Assembly (NCBI RefSeq): GCF_900168115.1
Contig: NZ_FUZC01000005.1
Span: forward strand, 186,001-250,000
Length of the DNA: 64,000 nt
DNA from: Salegentibacter salinarum
Lineage (GTDB): Bacteria; Bacteroidota; Bacteroidia; Flavobacteriales; Flavobacteriaceae
Direction: 5' to 3'
Position numbers and translations under genes: made by a program. The notes beneath the pieces are model-generated. The model saw only the letters and a list, made by a program, of their open reading frames with translations. It made no database searches and was not told the DNA's origin. Each line of letters opens with the position of its first letter. Positions within the stretch are counted from its first letter, which is position 1. This document shows positions 27,278-32,104 of the stretch, in pieces.

Positions 27278-27910
27278 TTACAACAACAATATCCTATGTT
27301 TAATAGCATAAAGCACCAAACCGGTTCGGCTTTTTACGTTTAGTTTTTGAAACAAACTCTCCCGGTAACCATCTATGGTTTTTGGGCTTAGGTTCATCTC
27401 GTTGGCCACCTCTTTGTACGTCATTTCGGTGCAGGCAAGTTCAAGAAATTCTATTTCGCGTTTGGTAAGATTGGTAAATTTTTTCTCCTTGTTCCTGTTT
27501 TTAATCGCTTCAGAAACCGCATCAGTATAGAAAAAACCTTCTTTTACCACTTCATCTAAAGCAAATTTAAACTCATCGGGATCTATGTCTTTCAGCAAAT
27601 AACCGCGGCAGCCGAGTTTTACCATAAAAGTCACGGTTTCCTCATCGTCTTCCATAGTAAGCGCCAGCACTTTTTGATTGGGATGGTTTTCTTTAAGCCA
27701 GGCCATAGTTTCGGGCCCATTCATAATAGGCATTCTAATATCCAGCAATACCAAATGGGGTTTTGGCTTATTGGCTTTAAATTGCTCTACCAGTTCCTGT
27801 CCGTTTTTATAAATGCCGGAGACCTCGTAATTTTCAAAAGAATTCACCAGGTTTTTTAAAGATTGCGCAAATAAAGTGTGATCGTCTACAATTGCTACGG
27901 TATTATTCAT
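27278..27910 (-). CDS. NarL/LuxR-type response regulator
   Basis: Receiver domain at residues 1-125 with the phospho-acceptor Asp57 (LVLLDIRMP) and acidic pocket VDD near the N-terminus; LuxR-type helix-turn-helix at about 145-205 with TKREIEFLELACTEMTYKEV and the recognition-helix region NLSPKTIDGYR. The total is 210 residues. The start overlaps the end of the kinase gene by eight bases, so the pair is coupled. The target genes are not evident. Confidence 0.93.
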   Translation of the reverse strand: MNNTVAIVDDHTLFAQSLKNLVNSFENYEVSGIYKNGQELVEQFKANKPKPHLVLLDIRMPIMNGPETMAWLKENHPNQKVLALTMEDDEETVTFMVKLGCRGYLLKDIDPDEFKFALDEVVKEGFFYTDAVSEAIKNRNKEKKFTNLTKREIEFLELACTEMTYKEVANEMNLSPKTIDGYRESLFQKLNVKSRTGLVLYAIKHRILLL

Positions 27911-28691
27911 CTTGTTGACCCATTAAAGAATAGCGTAAAGATAAAAAAGTTCCAGCGCCCATAGCACTTTCCAGCTTAAACTTTGTTTGTATTAAGGCTG
28001 CCCTGCTTTCCATATTAAATAATCCTGAATTCTTCTGTACCTCTTCCAAATCAAATCCCTGTCCGTTATCTTTTGCGGTAATAATGATTTCTTCGGAAGT
28101 AAAAGCTATATGAACTTCTAACGCTGAAGCCTTGGCGTGTTTTATCACGTTAGCAAAGAACTCCTGAAGAATCCGGAATAAAATAATACTGTGTTGCTGC
28201 GGAATTTCCTGTCTTTCGCCGGTAATTTCCAGCTGGGTTTCAATAACGCCCATTCGCTGAAACCTTTCCAGTTCATTTTCTACGGAAACCACCAAACCGG
28301 CATAACCAATAACCTGGTTGTTTAAAGATTTTGAAAGCGAGCGCACTTCCTGAAGCGAGCTGGCCACGGTTTCTTTAATTTCCAAAACTGAAGTTTTCTC
28401 GGCCTCAGGCAGGTTTTTTGAAAAGATATTTAGCTGCATATTAGCGACTGAAAGCAGCTGACCAATATTATCGTGCAGCTCCCAACCAACATTTTTTAAG
28501 GTTTGTTCCTGCATTTCTAAACGCGACTGGGAAATCTCCCGCTCAAAGCGCTGTTTAGCCTCAAATTTTTCCTCCAAAAGCTTGTTTTTTCGTCTCTGGT
28601 AGATCACAAAAAATAGGATCACAAAAGCCGTTAACAGCAGGATCACTAAAACAAAGTAGATAATGAGTAAAATTTCTTCTTTAGAAAGCAT
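27903..28691 (-). CDS. Sensor histidine kinase (HisKA_3 type), single membrane helix
   Basis: A 262-residue kinase: one N-terminal hydrophobic helix (about residues 7-30), a basic/coiled-coil linker, the phospho-acceptor His73 in GWELHDNIGQLL, and a HATPase domain whose G-box is seen as AKDNGQGFDLEEV. It has no periplasmic or PAS sensory domain of its own. It overlaps the response regulator by eight bases and the upstream membrane-protein gene by 11, suggesting that the sensing part is supplied by that neighbour. Confidence 0.92.
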   Translation of the reverse strand: MLSKEEILLIIYFVLVILLLTAFVILFFVIYQRRKNKLLEEKFEAKQRFEREISQSRLEMQEQTLKNVGWELHDNIGQLLSVANMQLNIFSKNLPEAEKTSVLEIKETVASSLQEVRSLSKSLNNQVIGYAGLVVSVENELERFQRMGVIETQLEITGERQEIPQQHSIILFRILQEFFANVIKHAKASALEVHIAFTSEEIIITAKDNGQGFDLEEVQKNSGLFNMESRAALIQTKFKLESAMGAGTFLSLRYSLMGQQDE

Positions 28692-29397
28692 TTTTTAGAT
28701 TCTTAGAAGTTGGTTTTTTCTTATTGGCCAACCATAAAAAGGCAATACTATAGGAACTATACATAAAAATATTCATTGCAATCATAATCAAACTGCTGAA
28801 CTCCACAAATTCCGGACTTTTATCATTAAAATATTCAAAATAAATGAAAATAGGGCTAGTAGTTAGAAAATAGAGAAGCGCCGCAAAGGAAATATAAAAA
28901 CTGATTTCCCTTTTTATATTTAAAATTTTAGGACTCAGCAGAATTTCAAAATAATAATAGAAAATAACTCCCAGCAGAAAAAAACTTCCCAATAAATAAG
29001 TAACCACTGAATTACTCTTAAAAAATACATCCGAGAATATTAGATTGGCAATACAAATTATTACATATAATAGTAAAGCTTTATCAATAAGTTGCGTTGT
29101 TTTATTATTTGAGATATTCCATTTAAAAAAGAGTATATAAACAACAAAACTGATAATCAAATAAGGATTATATAACCAATAAGTTCTGTACAAAAAAGTT
29201 TGCTTTAGAAAATGTAATTCTTCATTCCAGTAGATTGCAGCCGGAAATAATCCTATACTTTCAACAAAGAATGTTAGCAATAGAAAATACGAAAAAAACC
29301 CAACCGCTTTATCGGCTGGGTTTTTCTGGTAAAAATATAAGCCGCATATGGCTGCAATACCCTCAAGTAAAAATACCAGGAATCTAAAATCTTGCAT
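28681..29397 (-). CDS. Seven-helix membrane protein of unknown function, coupled to a histidine kinase
   Basis: A 238-residue, strongly hydrophobic protein with about seven predicted membrane helices (roughly residues 5-22, 34-53, 74-94, 107-125, 131-155, 167-190 and 200-225) and a basic C-terminal tail KKKPTSKNLKNAF facing the cytoplasm. I do not recognise the family. It overlaps the kinase start by 11 bases and the upstream small gene by one, so all four genes form one operon. A role as the detached sensor of the kinase is inferred from context only. Confidence 0.8.
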   Translation of the reverse strand: MQDFRFLVFLLEGIAAICGLYFYQKNPADKAVGFFSYFLLLTFFVESIGLFPAAIYWNEELHFLKQTFLYRTYWLYNPYLIISFVVYILFFKWNISNNKTTQLIDKALLLYVIICIANLIFSDVFFKSNSVVTYLLGSFFLLGVIFYYYFEILLSPKILNIKREISFYISFAALLYFLTTSPIFIYFEYFNDKSPEFVEFSSLIMIAMNIFMYSSYSIAFLWLANKKKPTSKNLKNAF

Positions 29398-29783
29398 TAA
29401 TATTCCATTGGAGGCCAGCCCGAGCCAATTGTATTATATGGCTCAATTTCATAATTATTAGGGTCAGAGTCTTCCTGGGCACTTTCCGTTTCACCCTTAG
29501 CTTCTTTGGTGGGCGAGAGAAACATGGTAGTAAAACTTTTTTTCTCTTTGGTTGTGGGATAGGCTCCTAAATAAAACCGAATTCCCGGTTTCTCCACGCC
29601 CTGTTCTTTAGATTTCTCCCGAACATAATCCAGGTATTCCTGCAATTCGTCCAGGCTATACCAGAATTCCCGGGTATCTTCATAACCTTCACATTCCCTG
29701 ATATCTTTTCCACGGGTTTTTACCCATTCGTCCTGTTCCTTACGCGCCTCTTCAACGCTAATACATTTTTTTGGTTTTTTCAT
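29397..29783 (-). CDS. Small acidic hypothetical protein, first gene of the two-component operon
   Basis: A 128-residue soluble protein, Glu/Lys-rich at the front (EEARKEQDEWVKTRG) with a disordered, acidic tail (TESAQEDSDPNNYEIEPYN). No domain is recognised, and there is no signal or membrane segment. The stretch GIRFYLGAYPTTKEKKSFTT looks like a folded core. Its stop overlaps the next start codon by one base (TAATG), so it is translated with the membrane protein, kinase and regulator. Confidence 0.75.
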   Translation of the reverse strand: MKKPKKCISVEEARKEQDEWVKTRGKDIRECEGYEDTREFWYSLDELQEYLDYVREKSKEQGVEKPGIRFYLGAYPTTKEKKSFTTMFLSPTKEAKGETESAQEDSDPNNYEIEPYNTIGSGWPPMEY

Positions 29784-29956: not shown

Positions 29957-30109
29957 GTCGTTGTGAGAAACCGATAACTGTCGTGGCAATCTGTAATTGG
30001 TTTATATTTTATTGTCGGTTGTGTTTCGCCCGAATATTCTATTTCTCTCTCTTACAGGGAATCACCTTTCAAAAAAAAGATCGCTTTACTCGTTCCTCGT
30101 TCGCGATCA
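29957..30109. repeat. Family B repeat, diverged copy
   Basis: The left arm ends in TGTCGTGGCAATCTGT. The right arm contains AAGATCGCTTTACTCGTTCC and then TCGTTCGCGATCAGG. It is more diverged than the copy at 25102-25254. Confidence 0.55.
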
Positions 30110-30161: not shown

Positions 30162-30431
30162 CGCCTTTGGCTTTTAAAAGCGCGATCTCATTAAAAAGGG
30201 GTGTTTTTCCCCTTGTCAAAAGCATACTTATCTTCTACTTTTGACATAGTCATTTTAGTTAGCTAAAGTGTTTTGGGGCAAAAGAGTGTCGTCAATGGTG
30301 GGAAATCTGATTGGTAGGGTAATCAGGTTTCTCGTAAACCAAGGCGGCACTTTTTTATTTTAATGAGCCTATATTTTAAAAAGGCCTTTGGCCGTATTTA
30401 AAAAATCCGATTTTATATCGGGATCTTCTCA
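30162..30431 (+). ncRNA. Candidate structured small RNA, copy 1 (unknown class)
   Basis: A 270-base unit repeated at 30795-31073. Stems in order: a GCC/GGC mini-hairpin, GGGG/CCCC (30195-30213), GTCAAAAG/CTTTTGAC (30215-30245), CATTTTAG/CTAAAGTG (30251-30270), then a long arm made of an outer 14-bp stem (30280-30293 with 30343-30356), a TGGT/ACCA stem, and a 14-bp hairpin (30300-30313 with 30320-30333) closed by the loop GTAGGG. The outer stem ends in a T-run, like a terminator. Stem differences between the copies mostly exchange Watson-Crick for G-U pairs, and these pair only if the plus strand is transcribed. No known class was recognised. Confidence 0.65.
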
Positions 30432-30507
30432 CAACTCTTAAACCTTTAATCATCCAGTGGTGAGTTCTCAGTTTTAGATCACCAAGAATTCATAAATATT
30501 TTTTCAT

Positions 30508-30692
30508 GTCATTGCTAAGACCGGGATAGCAGGGCGTGGCAATCTGTCCTTGAAAAGTATTACTGTTCCTCTCCATCTCTAATTGTTAATTCAAATGGCG
30601 ATACTAGAGTTAAAAGCTAAAATAATGCGGTATTGAGAAGTGACGGAGAACTCCAAACATAAGATCGCCGCACTCGTTCCTCGCTATGACGA
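30508..30692. repeat. Family B repeat between the two structured units
   Basis: The left arm is GTCATTGCTAAGACCGGGAT followed by CGTGGCAATCTGT; the right arm contains GATCGCCGCACTCGTTCCTC and ends CTATGACGA. The spacer is unrelated to that of the copy at 25102-25254. Confidence 0.6.
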
Positions 30693-30794
30693 ATGAAAGG
30701 AAAAATGAAAATTCAAAACTCATATCTGAGAACAGAACTCTAATCTATAAACAACCGACTACTGAAAACTGTATTCTGGAATATTTTCAGAATG

Positions 30795-31073
30795 CGCCTT
30801 TGGCTTTTAAAAAATACGATCTCATTAAAAGGGGATTTTTCCCCTTGTAAAAAGTGTACTTAGCCTCTACTTTTGACATAGTCATTTTAGTTAGCTAAAA
30901 TGTTTTGGGGCAAAAAAGTGTCGTCATTGGTGAGAAATCTGATTGGTAGGGCAATCAGGTTTCTCGTAAACCAAGGCGGCACTTTTTTATTAGTGAGCCT
31001 TAACATCAAGAAGGCCGTCGGCCGAAATGAATATTTTAGCGCGAGCTAATCCTGATTTTACAGGATCTTCTCA
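30795..31073 (+). ncRNA. Candidate structured small RNA, copy 2 (unknown class)
   Basis: A 279-base unit with the same order of stems as copy 1. CATTTTAG/CTAAAATG (30883-30902) is perfect here. The long arm has an outer 14-bp stem ending CGGCACTTTTTT, a TTGGT/ACCAA middle stem and a 14-bp GAGAAATCTGATTG/CAATCAGGTTTCTC hairpin with loop GTAGGG. Downstream are a GGCC/GGCC hairpin and ATCCTG/CAGGAT (31049-31066). The stem before CATTTTAG carries one mismatch compared with copy 1. It probably ends at one of the 3' hairpins. Confidence 0.65.
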
Positions 31074-31246: not shown

Positions 31247-32104
31247 CTAAAATTTAAACAAAAACCTAATCTTATCTCCCGCTCTTTTCTGTGCCATCAT
31301 ATTAATTCCTTTTTCACTTAGCTGTAAAACCCTTGGATAACCGCCGGTGGTTTGGCAGTCACGCATTAAAACGATCAATTTTCCACCGGGAGTGAGTTGG
31401 ACGGTTCCCGGCAATACCGGGCCGGTAATAATAGGATCCAGCACATTTTCTAAAATTTCGCTTAGCTGGATCGCCATTCGGTTATTGTTTTTATCAATGC
31501 TGAATTTGCTCTGTCTTAAATGACTTTTCAAAGTTTCGTGAAGTTTTTCGTATTCCGGGCCGGGAAAAACTTCAATTTCTTCGGAATTTAAATAGGTGTT
31601 ATCAAACTTTAATGCAGCGTGAGTCTCGTATTTTTCTTCCTCAGAAGCTTCGTAAAGCAATTTTATACCTTTTTCAAGCTTGCTGTGCTGGGTGATATCT
31701 TCGTACCAGCTTCGGCTTCCCAGGACCTTTTCGGTTTTAAAGCCGTCAAGAATTGCTAGATAAGCTCGCATACCAAGCTCGGGCTTTCCAAAAGAAAGCA
31801 CATCGTCTTTATTAATTTTTACTACTTCGTTATTTTCAATTTCCCTGTCATTTAATTTTGGGGAAAGATAAGCGCCGCTAATCGCGATTTTAGTAGCTGC
31901 CGAAAATTTAAGTTTTGGTCCCATTTGGGTGATTTCCATCACCGCGGCATCGGCCTGATTTTGCAAAATTAGGTTCGCGGTTTTTAAAGCAATTCTATCC
32001 ATCACTCCACTTAATGGAACTCCGTATTTTTGAAATCCGCGACGACCAAAATCCTGGATGGTAGAAAATAATCCCGGATGTATTACTTCAACTTCAGCGT
32101 GCAT
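31247..32104 (-). CDS. pxpC: 5-oxoprolinase subunit C (biotin-dependent carboxyltransferase-like, KipA family)
   Basis: A subunit of the ATP-dependent prokaryotic 5-oxoprolinase that opens pyroglutamate to glutamate. Family landmarks are HPGLFSTIQDFGRRGFQKYG at residues 8-27, GVPLSGVMDRIALKTAN, and the late MRDCQTTGGYPRVLQL block. Its 285 residues are slightly short for the family. It overlaps pxpB by 11 bases and is last in the operon. Confidence 0.94.
   Translation of the reverse strand: MHAEVEVIHPGLFSTIQDFGRRGFQKYGVPLSGVMDRIALKTANLILQNQADAAVMEITQMGPKLKFSAATKIAISGAYLSPKLNDREIENNEVVKINKDDVLSFGKPELGMRAYLAILDGFKTEKVLGSRSWYEDITQHSKLEKGIKLLYEASEEEKYETHAALKFDNTYLNSEEIEVFPGPEYEKLHETLKSHLRQSKFSIDKNNNRMAIQLSEILENVLDPIITGPVLPGTVQLTPGGKLIVLMRDCQTTGGYPRVLQLSEKGINMMAQKRAGDKIRFLFKF

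Follow-up and report, generated by a model that had tools for sequence, protein, structure and literature searches.

Tandem genes for a predicted structured small RNA in Salegentibacter salinarum and their probable control by an adjacent two-component system

Organization of the locus

The window, which denotes the whole stretch of 64,000 nucleotides from S. salinarum analyzed here, contains two copies of a 165-nt block (30195–30359 and 30827–30991) that are 92% identical and lie in a gene-poor stretch between small128 (29397–29783, minus strand) and a pxpC-like gene (31247–32104, minus strand). A previous sequence-only reading had described two diverged copies of a structured element at this position, which was confirmed. 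The length of about 270 nt assigned to the unit was not borne out, as the block conserved across species comprises approximately 165 nt, of which the predicted RNA takes up 109. Since alignments of 20 and 54 copies place a promoter before the RNA, the 270-nt unit has to be regarded as a mixture of DNA and RNA features. The flanking segments 30162–30194 and 30360–30431 are matched in some but not all of the 20 copies from the own genus. When the own genome was searched at the DNA level, the two copies of the window were returned at E ≤ 0.001 and no third one. The search with model R2 added a weak match on contig C30 (E 2e-4), corresponding to a second operator site, which is read as a promoter-only match because GGTAGGG is absent downstream. 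Upstream of each copy, a 30-nt direct repeat containing CTCGTTCCTCG was found (30070–30099 and 30654–30683, 83% identical), so that the duplication may include part of the upstream flank.

Small128 (our own label) encodes a small protein and is transcribed divergently from the element. It is the first gene of a minus-strand module that continues with the hydrophobic protein TM238 (likewise our own label; 28681–29397), a sensor histidine kinase with HisKA_3 and HATPase_c domains (27903–28691) and a NarL-type response regulator composed of a receiver and a LuxR/GerE helix-turn-helix (HTH) domain (27278–27910), the proposed activator of the small RNA. Small128 and TM238 are both conserved neighbors, and neither of them gave a Pfam or NCBIfam match. 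TM238, whose membrane nature was judged by eye from the sequence, probably spans the membrane several times and acts as a partner of the kinase. The gene on the other side of the array is convergent with it, contains a CT_A_B domain and presumably corresponds to pxpC; the same flank is found in most loci. The idea that the copy number of the element is tied to the number of TM238 paralogues was also considered and failed when followed locus by locus.

Promoter, operator and predicted transcripts

In the alignments of 20 and 54 copies, the order of elements from 5′ to 3′ is a palindrome of the form GGGG-N6-CCCC, the trinucleotide TTG, 20 freely varying nucleotides, the motif TAnnTTTG and, last, the RNA itself, which is conserved. 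In its extended form the palindrome reads AAGGGG(A/T-rich 6)CCCCTT, and it abuts the −33 box at a fixed spacing. The promoter spacer measures 20 nt in 52 of the 54 aligned copies and 19 nt in one, the remaining copy not being matched by the search expression. TTG and TAnnTTTG were each present in 48 of the 53 matched copies. We take TTG at −33 to be a promoter element. TAnnTTTG at −12 to −5 is given as the flavobacterial σA box in a study on Flavobacterium psychrophilum (PMC9723704).

For copy 1, the palindromic operator is located at 30198–30212 and reads GGGG-N7-CCCC, its central part thus being one base longer than the family norm. It is followed by TTG (30213–30215), 20 nt and the −7 element TACTTTTG (30236–30243). 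The operator of copy 2 (GGGGATTTTTCCCC, 30831–30844) is one of two matches to the operator-promoter pattern with TTG in the own genome and is followed by TTG (30845–30847) and the same −7 element (30868–30875). The predicted transcripts of 109 nt (30248–30356 and 30880–30988, plus strand) have starts placed from the −7 boxes at about 30248 and 30880 and ends placed from the T-runs at about 30356 and 30988. Copy 1 would consist of a 5′ hairpin (30251–30270), an unpaired UUUUGGGGC and a long terminator hairpin (30280–30356, including the T-run 30351–30356). The hexaloop GUAGGG lies at 30314–30319 in copy 1 and at 30946–30951 in copy 2. The upstream stem for which a mismatch in copy 2 had been noted lies at approximately 30214–30246 in promoter DNA, where the spacer pairs with the −7 box, and this spacer varies freely between species; it is a chance fold. 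Promoter, intrinsic terminator and conserved structure, features of trans-acting small RNAs, were all found at the level of sequence, as was the lack of a conserved open reading frame. It is well supported by these comparisons that each copy encodes a structured, non-coding RNA of about 109 nt and represents a putatively complete small RNA gene, running from a σA-type promoter to an intrinsic terminator.

RNA structure and its conservation

The predicted folds of copies 1 and 2 have free energies of −43.2 and −48.4 kcal/mol (z −7.6 and −10.4), and none of 200 shuffled sequences was as stable in either case. The antisense strand also exceeds its shuffles (z −4.5 and −9.2) and is less stable than the sense strand. 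A 14-bp outer stem, a middle stem of 4 or 5 bp and a 14-bp hairpin closed by the loop GTAGGG, as originally drawn from the letters of the two copies, are what is predicted for both transcripts. The transcripts differ at only five of 109 bases (30268, 30284, 30295, 30301, and 30320). Four of these differences turn Watson-Crick pairs into G-U pairs, namely those at 30301, 30320, 30284, and 30268, for which this had been claimed before, and the fifth, at 30295, sits at the site of the middle stem where a pair is gained.

For the analysis of covariation, which had been suggested as a check, 50 transcripts were aligned by MAFFT without use of structure information. They remained from 54 copies after removal of one that was cut at the end of its locus, one without a matched promoter and, by choice, both copies of locus L044. 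Two-sided changes were found in 14 of 19 pairs among these 50 relatives, compared to a mean of 11.1 in shuffled alignments, only three of 500 shuffles reaching 14. Of 947 stem cells, 91.8% were paired versus 74.3% after shuffling, a level that was reached by none of 500 shuffles. The covariation score amounted to 0.547 versus 0.236 in shuffled alignments (reached by none of 500) and at most 0.163 in slid controls, the tested structure being the consensus of the same alignment and therefore favored over the slid controls. The stem cells comprised 749 Watson-Crick pairs, 120 G-U pairs, 12 A-C combinations and 66 others, so that 78 of 947 were non-standard. The excess of G-U (120) over A-C (12) in the stems points to the plus strand. 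The apical loop reads GUAGGG in 42, GUGGGG in seven and GUGGGC in one of the 50 aligned relatives, and the 5′ hairpin is missing in some Gillisia paralogues. Taken as a comparative result, the predicted RNA structure is strongly supported, and the suggestion that the element may be a small RNA gains support from the covariation over 50 relatives, the preponderance of G-U over A-C and the presence of promoter and terminator in register.

Distribution among genomes

The family was found in 15 of 15 Salegentibacter genomes, in 16 of 16 Gillisia genomes and in a single genome from a third genus, g100. The own genus contributes 20 copies from its 15 genomes, five of which carry two copies, a count that leaves aside two short spurious matches in genome G014. 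Gillisia genomes carry arrays that reach four copies and comprise at least three paralogue types, two of these types forming clades across species (support 0.90 and 1.0). In the genome of the third genus (G113), the response regulator is located beside the small RNA (locus L181, 6090–9750), and no matches to the kinase, TM238 or small128 were found in the 17 kb fetched.

A scan of a genome collection with the core pattern yielded 22 stretches, of which 11 belong to Salegentibacter, nine to Gillisia (two of them from one strain), one to a Flavobacteriaceae bin and one to a record labeled Providencia. The latter match (L072) was dropped as a chance match, since it looks protein-coding by eye. 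Searches with models R1 and R2 matched four of 249 family genomes, all in these three genera, and two of 41 family genomes, both from the own genus, respectively; as the filters of both searches were strict, absence from other genera is unproven. A weak relative (L060, G269 contig C2:550714–550865, minus strand, E 2.9e-4) is located away from the module; it carries TAAATTTG, the pair GTGTCGG/CCGGCAC and the GTAGGG motif, and its upstream palindrome differs.

The operator-promoter and the response regulator across genera

Matches to the kinase at E ≤ 1e-25 were obtained in 86 of 149 family genomes, and 20 regions were fetched, 19 around strong kinase matches plus that of G113. In the 350 bp upstream of small128, the palindromic pattern GG-N-W4-N-CC occurred 30 times in 3,850 bp from 11 loci with a response regulator, at least twice in each, compared to 40 times in 135,427 bp (0.30 per kb) elsewhere in the loci with the regulator and once in 2,450 bp upstream of small128 in seven loci without a response regulator match (overlapping matches being counted separately). 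The full pattern GG-N6-CC-N2-TTG-N20-TAnnTT had six matches in the 20 regions, all of them divergent upstream of small128, versus a mean of zero in a control of five resamplings per region. This strict operator-promoter was not found in 14 of the 20 regions, and a looser version gave 10 matches where the controls averaged 2.0. All 15 of the tblastn matches listed for the response regulator, which represent 14 distinct genes, have the HTH segment LSPKTIDGYR in common.

In these related genera, the strict promoter faces various genes. It precedes a Pvc16-sheath operon of a contractile injection system in L173, peptidoglycan-binding/CHAP proteins in L166 and L167 (CHAP being below the cut-off in L166), a muramidase in L183 and a patatin-like protein, just below the cut-off, in L171, while in L174 no divergent gene start lies within approximately 2 kb. 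A divergent start was also seen for Pvc16-sheath operons in L164, L175, and L178 and for a tail-tube gene in L169; none of these four regions has the strict promoter, and L175 matches the looser pattern. The small128-TM238-kinase-regulator module may be a regulator of the divergent contractile-injection operons in L164, L173, L175, and L178.

The operator-promoter pattern was likewise searched in the 32 genomes of the three genera with the small RNA, and 64 matches in 30 genomes were obtained versus one in the reversed control. Some of the 64 lack TTG and probably arose by chance. In a set of 30 genomes, a tighter pattern gave 33 matches in 16 of them with none in the reversed control, and among the 12 genomes of this set that are without the small RNA it matched two, G041 and G131. 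For the bare palindrome with one mismatch allowed, the own genome yielded 11 matches versus nine in the reversed control, hardly an enrichment, which implies that the signal lies in the combination of palindrome and promoter. In the G131 genome, such an operator-promoter (L203, contig C1:2700613–2700655, minus strand) precedes a stretch of about 120 nt that ends in a terminator-like hairpin and in which no open reading frame of more than 100 amino acids was seen. This genus has no match to the present small RNA, and going by its sequence the stretch is possibly an unrelated small RNA under the same regulator.

A second recurrent site in the own genus is the promoter of a gene for a peptide with a single transmembrane (TM) segment, found in 12 of 15 genomes. 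Eight of these sites were read (L062, L104, L122, L124, L126, L128, L130, and L132) and the other four were judged by their matched letters. The site of the own genome (L062, G000 contig C30:53442–53486, minus strand) is located between an open reading frame of 145 amino acids resembling an aspartyl protease and an acyltransferase gene that by eye resembles sucB.

Proposed circuit and alternative explanations

Since the same palindrome-promoter is found divergent to the same module in some other genera, the NarL-type neighbor is the likely activator of the small RNA, and cross-genus comparison supports the view that the response regulator would act on the palindrome next to the −33 box. We consider it probable that the two tandem genes encode a single small RNA as output of the two-component system next to them. 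According to this model, a signal would be sensed by TM238 and the kinase (27903–28691), leading to phosphorylation of the response regulator (27278–27910), which would bind AAGGGG(A/T-rich 6)CCCCTT abutting the −33 box, recruit RNA polymerase and activate the promoter. The short RNA, capped by its terminator, would then accumulate, with the tandem copies raising the dose. Its exposed and almost invariant GU(A/G)GGG hexaloop might act in trans, either by pairing with sites of the CCC(U/C)AC type or as the ligand of an RNA-binding protein. When the window was scanned for sites complementary to the loop close to the starts of genes, two weak candidates and no supported target emerged.

The main competitor of this model accepts the small RNA as real and assigns the palindrome to another regulator or to a terminator on the minus strand, the two-component system then being a mere syntenic neighbor. 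We consider this unlikely but worth weighing. The link between response regulator and palindrome is drawn from sequence comparison, the bare palindrome is not enriched genome-wide, that of copy 1 carries one extra central base, and a run of A precedes GGGG, the minus strand reading AAGGGG-loop-CCCCTTTTT. Against it speak the fixed spacing of the palindrome to both the −33 and −7 elements, the recurrence, in 12 of the 15 Salegentibacter genomes, of a like site before the quite different gene for the single-TM peptide, and the fact that the density of the palindrome tracks the response regulator across genera.

A cis-acting leader or attenuator, in which case the structured stretch would be the 5′ region of a neighboring mRNA, appears very improbable. 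In three own-genus genomes (G003, G010, and G013) the element is not divergent from small128 but co-directional with its neighbors and located just upstream of small128, as would fit a leader. The sequence of the inverted element is kept in these genomes, which argues for an independent transcription unit. In the window as in most other loci, small128 is divergent and the downstream pxpC-like gene lies on the opposite strand. In addition, the RNA has its own terminator, and the tandem arrays repeat promoter and terminator every time.

Even less credit can be given to a gene for a small protein, represented by a frame of about 30 codons (MFWGKKVSS..LIGR) that runs through the hairpin and is open in both copies of the window. 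Among the 50 relatives, this frame is open through the loop in 13, including L040, a match that is short and spurious. No matching start is present in 22 of the relatives, and 15 run into a stop, eight of the latter being among the 20 own-genus copies. Substitutions in the stems instead compensate each other.

A mobile repeat of MITE or REP type, which had been offered as the alternative to a small RNA and to which the tandem pair, the strong inverted repeats and the partly repeated upstream flank might be ascribed, is scarcely credible, given that all 32 genomes carry their best copy at one locus, within 1.5 kb of small128, TM238, kinase, regulator or pxp genes, so that the element does not appear to move, that compensatory changes with a G-U bias are observed, and that neither blastn against phages and plasmids nor a search of viral contigs with one exact 30-base pattern gave any match.

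Returning to the regulation of the small RNA by the two-component system, some related genera carry the same module and promoter before contractile-injection, muramidase and other genes, so that in Salegentibacter and Gillisia the RNA stands where effector genes stand elsewhere. On this basis a wider interpretation can be put forward tentatively, although we rather doubt that it will hold in full: the RNA might define a previously undescribed flavobacterial family that serves as principal output of a widespread sensor module (small128-TM238-kinase-regulator), which in sister genera would directly activate contractile injection systems, the RNA replacing the structural genes and its GU(A/G)GGG loop binding a protein or mRNAs in a circuit similar to Gac/Rsm. 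To our knowledge, no such circuit has been described in Bacteroidota, and we are aware of only few small RNAs from this phylum with an assigned regulator. In the present case, sequence comparison gives access to the promoter, the operator, the probable regulator, the predicted transcript and its covarying structure. The operator moreover offers a way to approach how contractile injection systems may be activated in some flavobacteria.

Comparison with known RNA classes

None of the families of Rfam 15 reached its gathering score in the window (cmscan). When 1.4 kb around the element was searched at lax settings, seven matches at the level of chance were returned (best E 0.9). Of 20 related loci, one (L016) gave two matches, to CssrB (E 0.25) and CsrC (E 0.017), both below gathering and outside the element. 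The initial impression that no known class is recognizable holds, with no family at gathering in the window and nothing credible at the element in related loci. As judged from titles and the beginnings of abstracts, none of the papers found on small RNAs of Flavobacteriaceae, Salegentibacter, and Gillisia, on Rfp18, on GacA and rsmY or on regulators of contractile injection systems mentions this RNA.

The 6S-Flavo RNA (RF01685) is similar in size, its flavobacterial model comprising 108 positions compared to 109 nt for the small RNA. An identity with 6S RNA was rejected, as 6S-Flavo has a separate match in 14 of the 15 Salegentibacter genomes, that of the own genome lying at C23:4481–4600, and no 6S match was present in the window. 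The Flavo-1 motif, according to PMC9723704 an uncharacterized structured motif widespread in Flavobacteriaceae, is absent from the cmscan matches of the window and the 20 related loci. The same source describes Rfp18 of F. psychrophilum as a structured small RNA that is conserved outside its own species and whose pairing region is a third stem-loop; the present RNA may differ from Rfp18 in this respect. The core-pattern scan of the genome collection matched no record with Flavobacterium in its title.

The closest parallel is provided by the small RNAs of the Gac/Rsm system (RsmX, RsmY, RsmZ; CsrB, CsrC). Small RNAs of the Csr/Rsm type expose GGA motifs in hairpin loops. The apical loop of the Salegentibacter small RNA, by contrast, is devoid of GGA in all 50 relatives, and no Rfam match at gathering was obtained. 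The palindromic site differs as well and is located directly at −33. As both the loop motif and the Rfam models failed, the small RNA is not filed as a member of this group. The resemblance is one of arrangement: in both cases the RNAs are short, present in multiple copies and preceded by a palindrome. The Gac/Rsm RNAs are under a response regulator of the LuxR/NarL type, and in Salegentibacter the neighboring regulator, whose presence goes together with the palindrome across genera, is a candidate for this role. In the Gac/Rsm system, the palindrome upstream of the small RNA genes has been named as a potential GacA site in PMC2375449, and the 110-nt rsmX-2 is reported, in PMC7911923, to have arisen by duplication of rsmX-1.
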